Under the pieces are notes generated by a model. It was given only the letters and a program-made list of their open reading frames with translations. It searched no databases and was not told the DNA's origin. A program made the translations under genes and the position numbers. A DNA stretch of 33,031 bases, from the NCBI GenBank assembly GCA_017521805.1, contig JAFXDK010000010.1:1-33031 (forward strand), written 5' to 3'. Below are positions 25,458 through 33,031 of the stretch, in pieces. Source of the DNA: Ruminococcus sp. Lineage in GTDB: Bacteria > Bacillota > Clostridia > Oscillospirales > Ruminococcaceae. Position 1 is the first letter of the stretch, and each line of letters begins with the position of its first letter.

Positions 25458-25964
25458 ATGAATTATGATTTTACCGAAGATGTGAAGCTTGCCCGAAACG
25501 GCGATACGGCAGCTTTCTCACGCCTATACTCTACTATATATGAGGATTTGTACAGAATCGCCCTGTACAGTCTGCGAAACTCACATGATGCCTGCGATGC
25601 TGTAAGCGATACGGTTCTCGACGCTTTCTGCTCAATAGGCAATCTAAAAGACGAAAAAGCATTCCGATTGTGGATAATGCGCATACTCTCCATAAAAATC
25701 AAGCGAAAACAGCGGGAATATTTCGTCGATACAGCTGAATTGACGGAAGATGTTGAACCTATTGTTGAGTTCAACTGCGAGAATACAGAGCTCAAACACG
25801 CTATAAATTCCCTTGACCCGCAATCAAGGCTTATACTCTCGATGTCCGTTCTGGAGGGTTATACCAGCATAGAAATATCGGAAATATGCGGAATAAAGGC
25901 GAATACCGTCCGCACCATTATTGCGAGAACCAAGAAAAAATTACGTATGATGCTTGACAATTAA
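25458..25964 (+). CDS. ECF-type RNA polymerase sigma factor
   Basis: A 168-residue sigma-70 family protein with only regions 2 and 4. Region 2 (about 10-80) includes FSRLYSTIYEDLYRIALYSL, DACDAVSDTVLDAFCSIGNL and the FRLWIMRILSIKIKRKQR segment. Region 4 (about 110-168) is LDPQSRLILSMSVLEGYTSI then the HTH EISEICGIKANTVRTIIARTKKKLR. It directs polymerase to a small regulon, normally held off by a co-encoded anti-sigma. The next gene starts 13 bases after its stop. SD AAAGGATGTG with a long 11-base spacer. Confidence 0.93.
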   Translation: MNYDFTEDVKLARNGDTAAFSRLYSTIYEDLYRIALYSLRNSHDACDAVSDTVLDAFCSIGNLKDEKAFRLWIMRILSIKIKRKQREYFVDTAELTEDVEPIVEFNCENTELKHAINSLDPQSRLILSMSVLEGYTSIEISEICGIKANTVRTIIARTKKKLRMMLDN

Positions 25965-25977
25965 AGGAGGTCATTTT

Positions 25978-28449
25978 ATGAATTACAATGACGATAAAGT
26001 AAAAGATTTACTGAAAAATGTGGAAGTTCCCGAGGAAGTTTACCCCGAGAATATGAAAAAGATGCTTGACGAAAAAGCTCCTGCGAAAAAGCGTTCAAGC
26101 CGCATATCAATAGCAGGACGTATAACTGCCGCCGCTGCTGCCTGCGCAGTAATTGTAGGCGCAACCGTAGGCACAACAGGACTTATCAACCGTGACAAAA
26201 AAGGCAGTGTGAACTGCCCCGAGGTTTCCACTGAGAGAATAGAACCCGAAACACAGAACATTACCATTGAAGTTCCCGATGAAGAAGCAAAAGGGCCTTA
26301 CATGAACAGTGCTGAATCCTATGAGCAGGTTTACGCTCTTGTGGAAAAGGCAAATGAAGAACGAGGAAAATATCTCTATGGAACAAAGGGAGAAACAAAG
26401 GGAGAAATCTATTTCGAAGATGTTATAAATAGAGAGGCAGACAATGCTGTATCAGCCATTCCGGAAGAAGTACCCGCTGTTGACGGCAGTATAAACTCTG
26501 AATACACACAAGGCGACTTTGTAAGCGGCGGAATGGGCGGCGGAACAGAGCCTGAACAGCAGTACATTATACAGGAAGAATCAGAAGAATCCGCAACAGA
26601 AGCTCCTGCGGAGCCAATCACAGAAAGCCCTACAGAAGCGGCATCCGAAGAAGTTACAGAATCCCCTGTAACAGAAGAACCGACAGAACAAGCTACTGAG
26701 GAACCCACAGAAGCTGTAACAGAAGAAACAACTGAAACAGTAACAGAGGAAACAACAGAAGAAATCACAGAAGCGGAAGATGAGGACGATTATTCCGATA
26801 CCTACAATCAGGAGGAAAATGTCCTTGAAGCCGATATTGTAAAAACTGACGGCGAGAGAATTTACTATCTGTTCAATGATTACGATTATGAAAATGCGAC
26901 AAAATACAGTGGAAATTATGCCGCAATGCGTGTTGCCGCCGTTGATGACGGTGAAATTTCAGACGCATATACTCTTAATATAGAGTATGACTGCGGTCTT
27001 GGCGACGAATGGGAGAAAAATATATCTGTAAATGACATGTACATTTACAATGATATGCTTGCAGTTGTAGGAATGGTGGACGCTTATCACGACACATATA
27101 CAGAGTTCGGCTGGGATTATGACGGAGAGTACTGCTTCTATGGCAACGAAACAACTTCATTTGTTTCATTCTATACAAAAGAAAATGAACCTCAGCTTAT
27201 CGGAACATACACTCAGGACGGACGTTATAATGATGTTCGTATAGCTCCTGACGGTTATATGTATCTTTTAACAAATTATAATACAGATGAATTTGACACA
27301 ATCGAGGACAGCGAGGACATTGACGGTTACGTTCCCAAGTGCGGAGTTGATAACTCTGAGTATATTCCTGCTGGAAGTATACTGCTTCCGGAAGATGAAC
27401 TTGACAATTACGAATATATGAGCTATACTGTAATTGGAAGCATTAATCTTACAGTAAGCGGTGAATTTACAGCCTGTGATACAAAAGCACTTGCAGGCTA
27501 CAGCGGTATTATATATTCCTCTGCGGATAATCTTTACACAATGACGACAGATTATTCCGACACGGATATTACACGTATCGCAATAGGCGGCGGACAGATC
27601 GTCCCCATGGCAAGCGGTACGGTTGAGGGAACAATAAAAGACCAGTTCTCTTTCAGCGAATATAACGGCTATCTCCGAGTTGCTGCAACTATTAACAAAT
27701 GGGTTGACAACGGAAATTTCATAAAGGATGTACTGGATATTCCCTATGAAAGCCGCCGTGTCAACCACAATAACGTATATGTTCTTGACATGGATATGAA
27801 TATTGTTGGAAGCGTTGAAGGATTCGGTGTTGACGAATCCATTAAATCCGTAAGTTTCAGCGGCGATATGGGCTATGTCGTAACATATGAGCAGACAGAC
27901 CCCCTGTTTGCCATTGACCTTTCAGACCCTGCAAATCCCTTTATTACAGACGAATTCAAGATTTTAGGCTACAGCACATATATGCAGAAATGGGACGAGG
28001 GACTTCTCTTGGGCTTTGGCGCAGACGCTGACGAAAACGGCATTGAAAACGGCGTAAAGCTTGTTATGTTTGATAATTCCGATCCTTACAACCTTAAAGA
28101 AGTTGGACTTTACCCCATTCATCACGAGGGAGATAGTTACATCTATTCGGGAGCGTTATGGGAGAGAAAAGCACTTCTTATAGCTCCGAATAAGAACCTT
28201 ATCGGTGTGCCCGTTACTGTAGAAACCTATAGTCCTGAGTATCATTTTACAGGAGATTCTAAATATATGTTCTTCTCTTATGAAAACGGCGAATTTGTCT
28301 TTAAGGGCGAGCTTAGCCTTGGGGATATTAATGGTTACGGTGGAAGCCGTGCTCTTTACATCGGAGATTATGTGTATGCCGTTTCTCAGAATTGCTTTAT
28401 TTCAGCTGATATTGAAACTCTTACCGAGGTTGACCGCTTCTATTTTTAA
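25978..28449 (+). CDS. Membrane-anchored beta-propeller protein, putative anti-sigma factor
   Basis: An 823-residue protein with four parts: a short cytosolic segment (MNYNDDKVKDLLKN, then VPEEVYPENMKKML), one membrane helix (about 50-70), an extracellular Glu/Thr/Pro-rich linker with TEEPTE-like repeats (about 200-270), and a large C-terminal beta-propeller opening with VLEADIVKTDGERIYYLF, the signature of COG4880/PF09826 secreted propellers. Encoded directly after an ECF sigma gene with AAAGGAGG overlapping the sigma stop region, it is inferred to be that sigma's transmembrane anti-sigma, with the propeller as the outside sensor. The cytosolic part is shorter than the usual ~70-residue anti-sigma domain. 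Confidence 0.85.
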   Translation: MNYNDDKVKDLLKNVEVPEEVYPENMKKMLDEKAPAKKRSSRISIAGRITAAAAACAVIVGATVGTTGLINRDKKGSVNCPEVSTERIEPETQNITIEVPDEEAKGPYMNSAESYEQVYALVEKANEERGKYLYGTKGETKGEIYFEDVINREADNAVSAIPEEVPAVDGSINSEYTQGDFVSGGMGGGTEPEQQYIIQEESEESATEAPAEPITESPTEAASEEVTESPVTEEPTEQATEEPTEAVTEETTETVTEETTEEITEAEDEDDYSDTYNQEENVLEADIVKTDGERIYYLFNDYDYENATKYSGNYAAMRVAAVDDGEISDAYTLNIEYDCGLGDEWEKNISVNDMYIYNDMLAVVGMVDAYHDTYTEFGWDYDGEYCFYGNETTSFVSFYTKENEPQLIGTYTQDGRYNDVRIAPDGYMYLLTNYNTDEFDTIEDSEDIDGYVPKCGVDNSEYIPAGSILLPEDELDNYEYMSYTVIGSINLTVSGEFTACDTKALAGYSGIIYSSADNLYTMTTDYSDTDITRIAIGGGQIVPMASGTVEGTIKDQFSFSEYNGYLRVAATINKWVDNGNFIKDVLDIPYESRRVNHNNVYVLDMDMNIVGSVEGFGVDESIKSVSFSGDMGYVVTYEQTDPLFAIDLSDPANPFITDEFKILGYSTYMQKWDEGLLLGFGADADENGIENGVKLVMFDNSDPYNLKEVGLYPIHHEGDSYIYSGALWERKALLIAPNKNLIGVPVTVETYSPEYHFTGDSKYMFFSYENGEFVFKGELSLGDINGYGGSRALYIGDYVYAVSQNCFISADIETLTEVDRFYF

Positions 28450-28468: not shown

Positions 28469-29476
28469 ATGAAAAAAATTATTTCAGCAATATCAATTAT
28501 TGCTGTAACAGCTTTATGCATGACAGCCTGTGGAAATGAAAATCATGTTGTTTTGGAGCAAACCGACGATGCATACCATGTTTTTGAAACAGAACCTGCC
28601 ACAACTCTGCGTAAAGTTAAGCCTGTCGTTACAGATACGACAGCAACCGCAGCGGCAGATTCAGAAGATTCCACGGACAGCTCAGAAACTGCTCTGAAAT
28701 CTACAGATAAAGCAGAAACAACAGATACCGTCGCTGAATCTACAGCGGCGGCATCTCCCGAAGATTCAACGGACGGCGTACAAACTTCCGATAATTCAGC
28801 CGAAAACAGTGATAATCAGGACAATTCCGCTGCTGAAGCAGATGAATATTATCTTGAAGGTATAGTCTATAAAAAAATAGGCAAAGGTATACTTTTAAAC
28901 GAAAAGGATATGCAGCTTATAACTGTTAGCTTTAAGGAAGATTCTACAGCTGATACTCTGAATGTGGGCGATAAAGTGCTTATAACCTACAACGGTGAAA
29001 TTATGGAATCATATCCTGCACAGACTCATAATGCTTATGGTGTAAAAGTTACGGAAAAGGCGGAGCATACATATAAGGTACAGCACTTTGTGTGCGATAA
29101 CGAGGCTGTGAGTACATCATTTTCAATTCTTGTGCCTGATAAGTGGACGATAACACCTATTGATTATCCCACAGAGGGCGAATTTACAGACTGGGGATTC
29201 CGAATTATCCCTGAGGGCGAAACAACAGGACTTGATATAAGCTGGCACAGTGCATTTTCTGTCCGCGAGCCTTATGATGTATTCCCTGTAACTATCAACG
29301 GAAACAAGGTTGAGAAATACGGCGCAAACGGTAATTGGCGATTCTACGCCTACAACAACGGATATATTGCTGCAAATAATTTTTATGGCACTTCACTTTA
29401 TGATGAGTACTCCGATGATTTTGAGTTTATCCTCAGTACCCTCATCTTTGATCAGAATATGTTTATCGGTGAATAG
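28469..29476 (+). CDS. Predicted lipoprotein linked to the sigma/propeller genes
   Basis: A 335-residue protein with the signal peptide MKKIISAISIIAVTALC and lipobox MTAC (lipidated C21). A Ser/Thr/Asp/Glu-rich linker (about 45-125) follows, then a small OB-like or beta-barrel domain (YYLEGIVYKKIGKGILLNEK to GVKV) and a C-terminal domain (SFSILVPDKWTITPID and onward) resembling lipoprotein beta-sandwiches. Family not recognised. It begins 19 bases after the propeller stop behind CAGGTGATACA, making a three-gene operon that ends at 29485-29514. May act with the propeller at the cell surface. Confidence 0.75.
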   Translation: MKKIISAISIIAVTALCMTACGNENHVVLEQTDDAYHVFETEPATTLRKVKPVVTDTTATAAADSEDSTDSSETALKSTDKAETTDTVAESTAAASPEDSTDGVQTSDNSAENSDNQDNSAAEADEYYLEGIVYKKIGKGILLNEKDMQLITVSFKEDSTADTLNVGDKVLITYNGEIMESYPAQTHNAYGVKVTEKAEHTYKVQHFVCDNEAVSTSFSILVPDKWTITPIDYPTEGEFTDWGFRIIPEGETTGLDISWHSAFSVREPYDVFPVTINGNKVEKYGANGNWRFYAYNNGYIAANNFYGTSLYDEYSDDFEFILSTLIFDQNMFIGE

Positions 29477-29484
29477 TAATGATA

Positions 29485-29514
29485 AAAGCTCCCCTTATGT
29501 TCGAGGGGAGCTTT
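29485..29514 (+). terminator. Terminator of the sigma/propeller/lipoprotein operon
   Basis: AAAGCTCCCCT (29485-29495) pairs perfectly with AGGGGAGCTTT (29504-29514) around an eight-base loop. Confidence 0.8.
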
Positions 29515-29544
29515 CAGTTTGTAGAAAAAGGCATATTGTATAAC

Positions 29545-29618
29545 GGACACGGCGCGCCGTGTCCCTACAAAATGGCTATTTTACGATGTTTTGTGTAGGG
29601 GCTGCCTTTGGCAGTCCG
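29545..29618. repeat. REP-like intergenic element of two inverted units
   Basis: A 20-bp perfect palindrome, GGACACGGCGCGCCGTGTCC (29545-29564), runs into CCCTACA (29563-29569). After 24 bases comes TGTAGGG (29594-29600), its exact complement, followed by a CTGCC/GGCAG hairpin (29602-29614) and TCCG. The two halves face each other, as in bacterial REP/BIME elements. G+C is high against the A/T-rich surroundings. Confidence 0.65.
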
Positions 29619-29655
29619 CAATTTTGGAACGAAATTCAGTTTTTTCGACAATCTG

Positions 29656-29685
29656 AAATCTCCCCTGAAACGCAGGGGAGATTTT
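29656..29685 (+). terminator. Second plus-strand terminator after the REP element
   Basis: AAATCTCCCCTG (29656-29667) pairs perfectly with CAGGGGAGATTT (29673-29684) around AAACG, giving a T-run. It is a backup to 29485-29514 or the end of an unannotated transcript. Confidence 0.8.
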
Positions 29686-29695
29686 TGCATATAAA

Positions 29696-29811
29696 GAAAA
29701 AAGAAGCCCGATAAATCGGACTTCAAATAAAACAGAAAAAACATAAATGTGTAGAACAAAAGAAAGGAGACAACAAAACGAGTGATAAAATTATTCAATA
29801 ATATTATCACT
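29696..29811 (-). ncRNA. Predicted small regulatory RNA (about 115 nt)
   Basis: Minus-strand unit with a near-consensus promoter (29818-29846), start near 29811. The first bases form a long hairpin (GTGATAA...TTATCAC, 29782-29810). A ~57-base unstructured pyrimidine-rich stretch follows, with GTCTCCTTTC (complement of 29762-29771), complementary to a Shine-Dalgarno sequence. It ends in a terminator hairpin, GAAGTCCG with CGGGCTTC (29703-29724), followed by TTTTTT (29697-29702). No protein of credible length is encoded. Layout is that of a base-pairing sRNA; name and targets unknown. Confidence 0.65.
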
Positions 29812-29817
29812 ATAGAT

Positions 29818-29846
29818 ATTATACATCATTTGTCTGTCTTCGTCAA
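29818..29846 (-). promoter_or_regulatory. Promoter of the predicted small RNA
   Basis: Minus-strand TTGACG (29841-29846), 17 bases, TATAAT (29818-29823). It faces away from nifJ and has no protein gene downstream before the terminator. Confidence 0.8.
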
Positions 29847-29982
29847 GGGATTTTTCTAAAAAAAATCACACTTTGTAATTTTTAACAATTATCCGCTGTT
29901 TAATTTCAGCAAATCACCTAAAATATTCAATATTTTTGTTTTATCAAACTAACATAAATAGAATTATTAAGATAAAAAAATG

Positions 29983-30107: not shown

Positions 30108-33031
30108 ATGGCAATCAAAAGAAAAATGAAAACCATGGATGGTAATAACGCAGCTGCTTGGGTGTCATATCCCTTTACTGACGTTGCCGCTATCTATCCT
30201 ATCACTCCCTCTTCCGTTATGGCTGAGGTAACTGACAGCTGGTCCGCTAAGAACAAGAAGAATCTCTTCGGACAGCCTGTAACAGTTGCAGAAATGCAGT
30301 CTGAGGCTGGTGCTGCAGGTACAGTTCACGGTTCACTTTCCGCTGGTGCTCTCACCACTACATACACTGCATCTCAGGGTCTTCTCCTGATGATTCCCAA
30401 TATGTACAAGATTGCAGGTGAGCTTCTTCCTAACGTTATTCACGTTTCTGCTCGCTGCGTATCTTCACACGCTCTTAACATCTTCGGTGACCACTCCGAC
30501 GTTTACGCTTGCCGTCAGACAGGTTATGCAATGCTTTGCTCCGGTTCTGCACAGGAAGTTATGGACCTCGGTGCTGTAGCTCACCTTTCTACAATCAAGG
30601 GAAGAGTTCCTTTCCTCCACTTCTTCGACGGTTTCCGTACATCACACGAAATCCAGAAGATCGAGACATGGGACGACGAGACACTCTACTCTCTCCTCGA
30701 CAAGGATGCTGCTCAGAGATTCCGTGATCAGGCTCTTCACCCAGAGGCTCCTGTTCTCCGCGGTACAGCTCAGAACCCTGATATCTTCTTCCAGGCTCGT
30801 GAGGCTTGCAACAAGTACTACGATGCTCTTCCCGCTATCGTTGAGGACTACATGAACAAGGTAAATGACCTCATCGGTACTGACTATAAGCTCTTCAACT
30901 ACTACGGTGCTGCTGACGCTGAGCACGTTATCATCGCTATGGGTTCAGTAAACGAGACAATCGAAGAAACAATCGATTACCTCAACGCTGCCGGCGGTAA
31001 GTACGGTCTCGTAAAGGTTCGTCTCTACAGACCTTTCGTAGCAGATAAGCTTGTTGAAGTTATTCCTGAAACTGTTAAGAGAATTTCTGTTCTCGACAGA
31101 ACTAAGGAGCCCGGTTCACTTGGCGAGCCTCTCTACCTCGACGTAGTAGCTGCTCTTAAGGGTACAAAGTTCAACGATACTCCTATCTTCACAGGCCGTT
31201 ACGGTCTTGGTTCTAAGGATACAGTTCCTGCTCAGATTGTTGCTGTATTCAAGAACGAAACAAAGCCAAGATTCACAATCGGTATCGAGGATGACGTTAC
31301 TAACCTTTCACTTCCTCTCGAGGCTAACCCTGATTCAGCTCCTGCAGGCACAACAGCTTGTAAGTTCTGGGGTCTCGGTTCAGACGGTACTGTTGGTGCT
31401 AACAAGAACTCTATCAAGATTATCGGCGACCACACAGACCTCTATGCACAGGCTTACTTTGCATATGACTCAAAGAAGTCCGGCGGTGTAACTATTTCCC
31501 ACCTCCGTTTCGGTAAAACACCTATCAAGTCTACATACCTTATCAATAAGGCTGATTTCGTAGCTTGTCACAACCAGAGCTATATCGACAAGTATGATAT
31601 GGTTTCTGATATCAAGCCCGGCGGTACATTCCTCCTTAACACAATCTGGACTCCTGAAGAGCTCGACGCTAACCTCCCCGGACAGGTTAAGAGATATATC
31701 GCTCAGAACAACATTAACTTCTACACAATCGACGGTGTTAAGCTCGGTAAGGAAACAGGCATGGGTACACGTATCAACACTATCCTCCAGTCTGCTTTCT
31801 TCAAGCTCGCTAACATCATTCCTTTCGAGGAGGCAGTTGGCTACATGAAGGCTGCTGCTGAAGCTTCTTACGGCAAGAAGGGTCAGGATATCGTTGAGAA
31901 GAACTGGAATGCTATCGACGCTGGTCACCAGAACATCGTTAAGATTGACGTTCCTGCTTCATGGGCTGACGCTGCTGATACTCAGATGGGCGTAGCTGCT
32001 GTAACTTGCGAGAACAAGAACCTCCAGGATTACGTAAACAACATCCAGATTCCCTGCAACGCTCAGAAGGGTGATACTCTTCCCGTTTCCACATTCGTAG
32101 ACATGGCTGACGGTACATTCCCCCAGGGCTCTGCTGCATTCGAGAAGCGTGGTATCGCTGTTGACGTTCCCGAGTGGATTCCTGAGAATTGTATCCAGTG
32201 TAACCAGTGTGCTTATGTATGTCCTCACGCTGTAATCAGACCTGTTGCTCTTACAGAGGACGAGGCTGCTAAGGCTCCTGCTAACGCTAAGATTGTTGAC
32301 TTCAAGCCCGCTATGAACGGTCTCAAGTACATGATGACTGTTTCTACTCTCGATTGTACAGGCTGCGGCGTTTGTGCTAACGTTTGTCCCGCTAAGGAGA
32401 AGGCTCTCGTTATGAAGCCTATCGCTTCTCAGATGGATCAGCAGGAAGTATTCGCTTACGGTACAACTATCGACGAAAAGGCAGAGGTTGCTGCTAAGTT
32501 CAAGGCTGACACAGTTAAGGGCTCACAGTTCAGACAGCCCCTCCTCGAATTCTCCGGCGCTTGTGCTGGTTGTGGTGAGACACCTTACGCTAAGCTTGCT
32601 ACACAGCTCTTCGGCGACAGAATGATGATCGCTAACGCTACAGGTTGTTCTTCAATCTGGGGTGGTTCTGCTCCTTCAACTCCTTACACAGTTAACAAGC
32701 AGGGCAGAGGTCCCGCTTGGTCCAACTCCCTCTTTGAGGATAACGCTGAGTTCGGTTACGGTATGTACCTCGCTCAGGAGACACTCAGAGCAAGAGTTAC
32801 TGAGAAGGTTAAGGCTCTTGAGGCTAAGACAGAGTGTGCAGACGTTAAGGCTGCTATCGCTGAGTACTTTGAGACATACAACGACGGTGCTGCTAACAGC
32901 GTAGCAACAGATAAGCTCGTTGCTGCTCTTGAGGCTTGCGGCTGTGATGACGCTAAGGCTATCCTTGCTGAGAAGCTCTATCTCTCCAAGAAGTCACAGT
33001 GGATTCTCGGTGGTGACGGTTGGGCTTACGA
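30108..33031 (+). CDS. nifJ: Pyruvate:ferredoxin (flavodoxin) oxidoreductase, 3' end cut off
   Basis: 974 codons are visible from an ATG behind TGGAGGTC, running off the window; full length in the family is about 1170. The order is domain I (MDGNNAAAWVSYPFTDVAAI, then IYPITPSS), a central domain, two 4Fe-4S clusters at C695/C698/C701/C705 (CIQCNQCAYVCP) and C750/C753/C756/C760 (CTGCGVCANVCP), and the TPP domain start (GACAGCGETPYAKL, TGCSSIWGGSAPSTPY). It oxidises pyruvate to acetyl-CoA and CO2, reducing ferredoxin. Codon use is very biased, like the ribosomal genes, indicating high expression. Confidence 0.97.
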   Translation, partial: MAIKRKMKTMDGNNAAAWVSYPFTDVAAIYPITPSSVMAEVTDSWSAKNKKNLFGQPVTVAEMQSEAGAAGTVHGSLSAGALTTTYTASQGLLLMIPNMYKIAGELLPNVIHVSARCVSSHALNIFGDHSDVYACRQTGYAMLCSGSAQEVMDLGAVAHLSTIKGRVPFLHFFDGFRTSHEIQKIETWDDETLYSLLDKDAAQRFRDQALHPEAPVLRGTAQNPDIFFQAREACNKYYDALPAIVEDYMNKVNDLIGTDYKLFNYYGAADAEHVIIAMGSVNETIEETIDYLNAAGGKYGLVKVRLYRPFVADKLVEVIPETVKRISVLDRTKEPGSLGEPLYLDVVAALKGTKFNDTPIFTGRYGLGSKDTVPAQIVAVFKNETKPRFTIGIEDDVTNLSLPLEANPDSAPAGTTACKFWGLGSDGTVGANKNSIKIIGDHTDLYAQAYFAYDSKKSGGVTISHLRFGKTPIKSTYLINKADFVACHNQSYIDKYDMVSDIKPGGTFLLNTIWTPEELDANLPGQVKRYIAQNNINFYTIDGVKLGKETGMGTRINTILQSAFFKLANIIPFEEAVGYMKAAAEASYGKKGQDIVEKNWNAIDAGHQNIVKIDVPASWADAADTQMGVAAVTCENKNLQDYVNNIQIPCNAQKGDTLPVSTFVDMADGTFPQGSAAFEKRGIAVDVPEWIPENCIQCNQCAYVCPHAVIRPVALTEDEAAKAPANAKIVDFKPAMNGLKYMMTVSTLDCTGCGVCANVCPAKEKALVMKPIASQMDQQEVFAYGTTIDEKAEVAAKFKADTVKGSQFRQPLLEFSGACAGCGETPYAKLATQLFGDRMMIANATGCSSIWGGSAPSTPYTVNKQGRGPAWSNSLFEDNAEFGYGMYLAQETLRARVTEKVKALEAKTECADVKAAIAEYFETYNDGAANSVATDKLVAALEACGCDDAKAILAEKLYLSKKSQWILGGDGWAY

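Follow-up and report, generated by a model that had tools for sequence, protein, structure and literature searches.

The 33,031-nt window analyzed here (the whole stretch of DNA under study, to which all positions refer) almost certainly carries a real, new, and conserved small RNA (sRNA) gene on its minus strand at 29811-29696. The best explanation of its role, to which we assign a probability of roughly 0.55, is that of a trans-acting sRNA whose main action is pairing with ribosome-binding sites. The predicted transcript is approximately 110-116 nt in length (29696..29811), its ends being placed from promoter spacing, the terminator, and a covariance model match over positions 1-118 of R1, the model having been built with that copy. 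Reading the minus strand from 29846 to 29693, one finds in order TTGACG (-35; 29841..29846), 17 nt, TATAAT (-10; 29818..29823, from a promoter scan and the relatives), 6 nt, and a predicted hairpin (29781..29811) starting at the first transcribed bases. Next come some 55 nt for which no stable structure is predicted, and then a GC-rich hairpin with a T-run, the two together (stem 29724-29703 plus T-run) constituting an intrinsic terminator at 29696..29724. The invariant core CACTCGTTTTGTTGTCTCCTTTCTTTTGTTCTACACA, presumed to be the pairing region, occupies 29748..29784 and includes the anti-Shine-Dalgarno-like stretch TCTCCTTTC (29762..29770, as read from the sequence); a variable U-rich 3′ segment (29724..29747) lengthens the complementarity to a vanY leader in this genome.

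The initial annotation described a promoter, 5′ hairpin, CU-rich stretch, and terminator, and all are present on the minus strand where it placed them. The promoter (29846-29818) is indeed near-consensus, with 11 of 12 consensus positions around a 17-nt spacer. The number of promoters in the region is near chance (seven, two of which reach 11/12, against 4.8 ± 2.1 in shuffled sequences), so that the promoter alone is no proof of an sRNA gene; it is conservation which raises the gene above chance. Fold prediction for the 113-nt strand gives two hairpins only (z = -4.9), with none of 200 shuffles as stable. Over the predicted ensemble, the bases of a 28-nt core are unpaired 85% of the time on average, and the least open of them 39%; TCTCCTTTC (29770-29762) is exposed between the two hairpins as had been claimed. 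The absence of a protein gene also holds: the only open reading frame of at least 60 aa across the sRNA on this strand has 81 aa and begins with a GTG at 29810, position 2 of the predicted transcript. Relatives differ in how far this GTG lies from the core (mostly 26 or 27 nt, also 19 and 28 nt), so the frame is not kept; moreover every letter of the core is conserved, third positions in all frames included, which argues against coding. Judged by its sequence, the sRNA is an independent gene with its own promoter and terminator and without a conserved open reading frame, and it possesses a conserved exposed segment which, from the predicted fold, appears suited to pairing.

Of 35 relatives in the genus, 32 give a strong BLAST match to the 158-nt region, with E values of 1.5e-14 or lower; G021, G022, and G023, which do not, are 64-68% complete. 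The best match among 24 genomes of other families in the order has an E value of 0.0046. The arrangement TTGAC[GT]-17-TATAAT-6-AGTG recurs in 31 of 33 distinct loci, the remaining two being truncated at contig edges, and the 37-nt core is unchanged in all 30 loci listed. In a set of 30 transcripts, 93.1% of pairs in the two hairpins are retained, with changes of both partners at 12 of 21. In the 5′ hairpin 94.3% of cells are paired and 4 of 12 pairs change on both sides (four others are invariant and hence uninformative on covariation), as do 8 of 9 in the terminator. This level of covariation was reached by none of 500 shuffles, and controls slid along the alignment drop to 32%-46% of pairs kept; from the aligned sequences, the 5′ hairpin and terminator of the sRNA covary. 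Of 151 host loci, 149 have a terminator-like hairpin downstream of the core. The initial annotation had proposed joint conservation of promoter and terminator as a check on its candidate; promoter, hairpin, core, and terminator are kept jointly in the relatives, and the unannotated sRNA gene it postulated is strongly supported by the conservation of all parts.

A covariance model search of 295 genomes of the order recovered the sRNA in 16 of 31 family genomes. Another six matches, with E values from 4.8e-4 to 8.8e-3, fell outside the family and were discounted; by eye they share a hairpin, a terminator, or at most about 10 core bases. In copies read from other genera the 5′ hairpin sequence is unrelated and the terminator different, and the core is kept (by eye). 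When the 28-nt core GTTGTCTCCTTTCTTTTGTTCTACACAT was sought in 298 family genomes, a search which catches copies with up to three changes, matches were found in 97 genomes belonging to 29 of 115 genera, as a single copy in 95 of the 97; a few of these may be phage-type copies. The reversed control gave no match in the same genomes. The first 24 nt of the best copy are identical in 96 of the 97, and the carriers among the matches listed include Ruminococcus flavefaciens and R. albus 8. Individual loci depart from the usual layout. L145 has two tandem, near-identical hairpin-core-terminator copies (1251 and 1498) approximately 250 bp apart, the second without an evident promoter. An insertion of about 50 nt in the 5′ hairpin of L031 and L045 gives a predicted RNA of 163 nt with the core unchanged. 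Contig C15 of G489 has, besides an exact copy, two extra core copies with three changes each at 112990 and 113148, 158 nt apart.

Rfam yields no match in the window at gathering scores, and at E values up to 5 just matches far below those scores, none credible; by these comparisons, the sRNA is a new family within the GTDB family holding Ruminococcus. No earlier report of it was found among the papers listed by literature searches. It may be among the thousands of candidate RNAs in human microbiomes presented by PMC8040213. The exact core 20-mer was not found in the paper texts searched.

The sRNA gene is flanked by a divergent nifJ gene for pyruvate:ferredoxin oxidoreductase (PFOR; 30108..33031, plus strand; Pfam POR_N, POR, EKR, and PFOR_II), which runs past the window end, and by a convergent gene (28469..29476, plus strand) for a 335-aa protein with a DUF3221 domain (Pfam). 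A tblastn search covering about 1.5 kb to either side of the other 29 loci did not find the latter. The initial annotation gave weight to the central metabolic neighbor, a point that did not survive comparison: divergent PFOR adjoins the sRNA at 63 of 166 loci and occurs within about 1.5 kb at none of 14 loci of four other genera. Linkage to nifJ as a clue to function was rejected as not general. Between the DUF3221 gene and the sRNA, the plus strand at 29488-29700 shows by eye short palindromes such as GGACACGGCGCGCCGTGTCC and CTCCCCTGAAACGCAGGGGAG, which resemble small intergenic repeats or terminators. Further away, at 25954-28449 (plus strand), is a gene whose protein product combines a beta-propeller domain (PF09826) with a long stretch rich in T and E.

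A further conserved site, ATTGTTAAAAATTACAAA (TTGT-N8-ACA; 29872..29889, minus strand), starts 43 nt above the -35 element of the window; its most typical form is ATTGTGCAAAATGACAGA. A motif search over 29 genus loci, which forces one site per locus, gave it 20.5 bits as against 8.8-9.6 in shuffles. The site starts 54 nt above the -35 element in 22 of these loci, 53 nt in one, 43 nt in one (this window), and 33 nt in five. Of 125 additional upstream regions, part of them from genomes already represented, 77 have a site scoring more than 9 bits, compared with 13 on the reverse strand, and these 77 sites lie at 53/54 (50), 42/43 (11), 32/33 (6), 24 (4), and elsewhere (6). The spacings differ by single helical turns, as would suit an activator in contact with the polymerase, and the phased site suggests an activator of the sRNA promoter.

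In the preferred explanation such an activator would switch on the promoter through the phased site, and the core, perhaps with Hfq, would pair with mRNA leaders (UUUUGUUCUACAC to GUGUAGAACAAAA and UCUCC to the Shine-Dalgarno sequence) and block ribosomes. One regulated unit in Ruminococcus would be the gene for a vanY-like D,D-carboxypeptidase, plus its dacA neighbor in part of the species. The phages that have this core, in many cases leading the packaging genes, would use it to imitate the sRNA or to absorb its action.

BLAST of the window's own genome revealed a long complement to the sRNA in a leader on contig C8, TGTGTAGAACAATCGGAGG (31 nt, 94%, E 6e-6), directly preceding a 318-aa gene the protein product of which matches Pfam VanY, a D,D-carboxypeptidase. 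With the core alone this leader reaches -30.1 kcal/mol and ranks first of 299 own starts, it having been chosen since BLAST had already shown the complementarity; the other 298 were sampled from 400 kb, and the mean is -14.6 (sd 3.6) kcal/mol. With a longer piece of its own sRNA the value is -49.8 kcal/mol, whereas sRNAs from other species average -36.7 on it. A second M15 gene of this genome ranks 42nd of 299 for pairing energy with the core. VanY-family starts average -22.2 kcal/mol versus -14.5 for 190 others (p 3e-9) and take 17 of the best 19 places among 220, the last eleven of the 30 ranking 46 to 168; these relatives were fetched by protein search regardless of the sRNA, the species are related, and a few loci on either side came in through the seed pattern. 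TGTAGAA is present in 11 of 29 vanY leaders and either it or AGAACAAA in 19. Species-matched pairs of sRNA and vanY leader were no better than swapped ones across 25 species (p 0.15, or 0.55 without the window's own genome), and species-specific co-evolution of the two, evident in this genome, was rejected as a general feature. VanY as a general target outside Ruminococcus was likewise not supported, relatives being found in 5 of 14 carriers from other genera with background-like sites of -12.5 to -20.1 kcal/mol; other partners must therefore exist. The vanY-like gene is the best in silico target.

In many such loci vanY is preceded by dacA (Pfam Peptidase_S11). Eleven dacA starts gave -26.0 to -34.4 kcal/mol against a background mean of -14.4 (sd 3.3), a circular comparison since they were picked through the motif GTGTAGAATGA itself. 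When dacA was instead identified by protein similarity, 7 of 13 readable starts (L220, L221, L229, L235, L237, L238, and L242) fell between -26.0 and -33.7 kcal/mol and six were background-like. At L222, L224, L226, L227, L230, and L239, the dacA start is followed by just 6-35 codons and the gene is a remnant, yet the leader element and later arms are kept; the simplest reading of an element that outlives its gene is selection on the leader. Judging from these comparisons, VanY/DacA can be one regulated unit in Ruminococcus and cannot account for a core frozen in 29 genera.

The pattern TGTAGAA..GGAG has 19 matches in the window's own genome, fewer than its reversed control (26), as does GTAGAAC..GGAG..ATG in 60 genomes (78 versus 103). 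The latter pattern brought up spo0A, which was rejected as a target for this genome: AGAACAAA occurs in 11 of 30 spo0A leaders, with a mean of -17.9 kcal/mol and only -12.8 for its own spo0A, which would make it a weaker, patchy candidate elsewhere. The reversed core reaches -27.5 kcal/mol on own starts, so pairing energy alone is weak evidence. A near-complement of 16/17 nt in this genome, at C111:60808, has no evident gene after it. Hfq is encoded in the own genome and in 25 of 61 family genomes; for the 52 genomes present in both listings it occurs in all ten with a core and in 13 of 42 without (p 7e-5, relatedness ignored). The action of the sRNA is perhaps Hfq-assisted.

The trans-acting pairing with ribosome-binding sites suggested by the initial annotation has some in silico support in its general form, and the part given to TCTCCTTTC needs revision: the conserved stretch is far longer, and in the best target UUUUGUUCUACAC would do most of the work, with the anti-Shine-Dalgarno part contributing too. 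Several facts sit uneasily with pairing as the main action. The 24 frozen unpaired nucleotides exceed the needs of one target, the broad seed patterns fall below their reversed controls, the energy attained by the reversed core is high, 10 of 29 vanY leaders have neither seed form, and 6 of 13 dacA starts look like background.

A second explanation, which we regard as less likely, is that the core is a protein-binding RNA titrating an RNA-binding protein or other machine, with phage copies as decoys or recruiters and complementarity to mRNAs secondary. Constancy of 24 nt in 96 of 97 genomes and 29 genera, while hairpin, spacer, and terminator differ between genera, would be expected of such an RNA, as would a stretch of 22 nt unchanged in 26 phage contigs and the small number of long complements in the own genome. 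It leaves unexplained why vanY, and dacA at some of its starts, should be preceded by GTGTAGAACAAAA-like leaders, and why the dacA leader outlives its gene.

Some dacA-vanY leaders end in terminator-like hairpins, and counter-transcript RNAs on some plasmids act by attenuation. It is conceivable, at rather long odds, that the sRNA pairs with leader arm A and so frees arm B to form an intrinsic terminator B:C. Leaders L216, L217, L219, L222, L226, L227, and L239 have an arm A, an arm B, and a terminator-like C, and barring arm A from pairing raises the mean pairing of the 3′ arm from 0.48 to 0.71 in L226 and from 0.44 to 0.74 in L227. In the other five of these seven leaders there is little or no rise (0.86 to 0.74, 0.82 to 0.80, 0.74 to 0.72, 0.68 to 0.65, and 0.69 to 0.70), and no such leader is apparent before the vanY-like gene of this genome. 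In the vanY leaders of L216, L217, and L219 the element GTGTAGAA is followed by a strong terminator-like hairpin with no dacA between; attenuation, or sponging of the sRNA, is a conceivable role for them.

The exact core 20-mer is present in 26 IMG/VR contigs, which form 17 groups when similar flanks are joined; the reversed 20-mer gave one match. All 26 have the same 22-nt core in the same sense, and patterns two bases longer, open at two positions, returned the same 26 contigs and no variants. INPHARED (named phage records) contained nothing credible (best E 0.5). A tRNA gene lies on the same strand 41-72 nt downstream of 19 of the 26 cores (15 Met, 2 Leu, 2 Ser). Gene scans covered a minority of the genes around these cores: upstream of the core, each of nine genes tested has a match to phrog_36, a family of phage transcription regulators (weak in L178, where another family scores best), and the downstream genes tested include those for small and large terminase subunits, portal proteins, DNA methyltransferases, and an HNH endonuclease. 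From these neighbors the phage core often seems to head the packaging genes, which are late genes. L174 and L175 differ in that a TTGACA-17-TATTAT promoter leads directly to the core, behind which comes a terminator-like hairpin (by eye). Core copies in L039-L042, which come from host assemblies, resemble the phage copies, and two adjoin tRNAs. A long hairpin-like stretch seen by eye before the core of L176, L177, L178, L179, L186, and L188 has a recurrent CAGGCGGA...GCCTCCGCCT frame plus CTTTCGGGAG, for some partly beyond the printed stretch; an Rfam scan of L176, L178, and L186 found tRNAs only.

The phage copies suggest a mimic or decoy of the host sRNA. A possible, if tentative, elaboration is that the sRNA and several distinct phages share one invariant RNA module of 22-28 nt, which phages place before a tRNA at the head of the packaging genes so as to impose or absorb regulation as lysis is prepared, the host using it, expressed from a regulated promoter, to set the synthesis of the cell-wall carboxypeptidase (and, in some species, Spo0A). 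Integration of phages in the sRNA gene, with the core carried as attP, appears very unlikely. A gene about 0.8 kb from the core in L174 and L175, which in L174 matches integrase families, would fit an attachment site, whereas the other cores tested adjoin phrog_36 regulators, terminase, and portal genes, with HNH endonuclease, amidoligase, and methyltransferases once each or twice and no integrase, and 19 of 26 precede a tRNA. That there is no separate RNA, the region being a DNA feature or the leader of another gene, is scarcely credible; against it stand the terminator-like hairpin seen in 149 of 151 host loci, the promoter in 31 of 33, and the variable start-to-core distance which breaks the frame.

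If the sRNA is real, a group of rumen and gut bacteria gains a conserved sRNA with candidate targets. A mostly unpaired stretch which is near-frozen over 29 genera and unchanged in 26 phage contigs is unusual and raises the question of its binding partner. Mimicry, if true, would have phages imitating the host sRNA itself rather than its target, and the same-sense copies make phage control of host riboregulation directly testable.

RoxS, FsrA, and CsfG are Bacillus sRNAs with C-rich regions, the relatives of RoxS including RsaE (PMC8216469, in part). The sRNA of the window resembles them as a Firmicute sRNA with hairpins, an exposed pyrimidine-rich segment able to pair with mRNA, and, putatively, regulated transcription. 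It differs in lacking a credible Rfam match, in its 24 invariant nucleotides, and in its predicted targets, the D,D-carboxypeptidases; furthermore, in place of the C-rich pairing segments of RoxS its core is CU/U-rich, with UUUUGUUCUACAC and UCUCCUUUC and no run of more than two C residues. RosA is a sponge of RoxS (same source, in part); in like manner the dacA-remnant leaders with a terminator could sponge the core, in their case as putative separate transcripts and on the strength of sequence. The phage copies call to mind AgvB, an anti-sRNA encoded by E. coli phages (PMC4104026 and PMC12197685, each in part), in that a phage RNA may disturb the set of genes governed by a core-genome sRNA. 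AgvB imitates an mRNA target, whereas here the phage stretch would be the sRNA itself, in the same sense and often directly before a tRNA gene.
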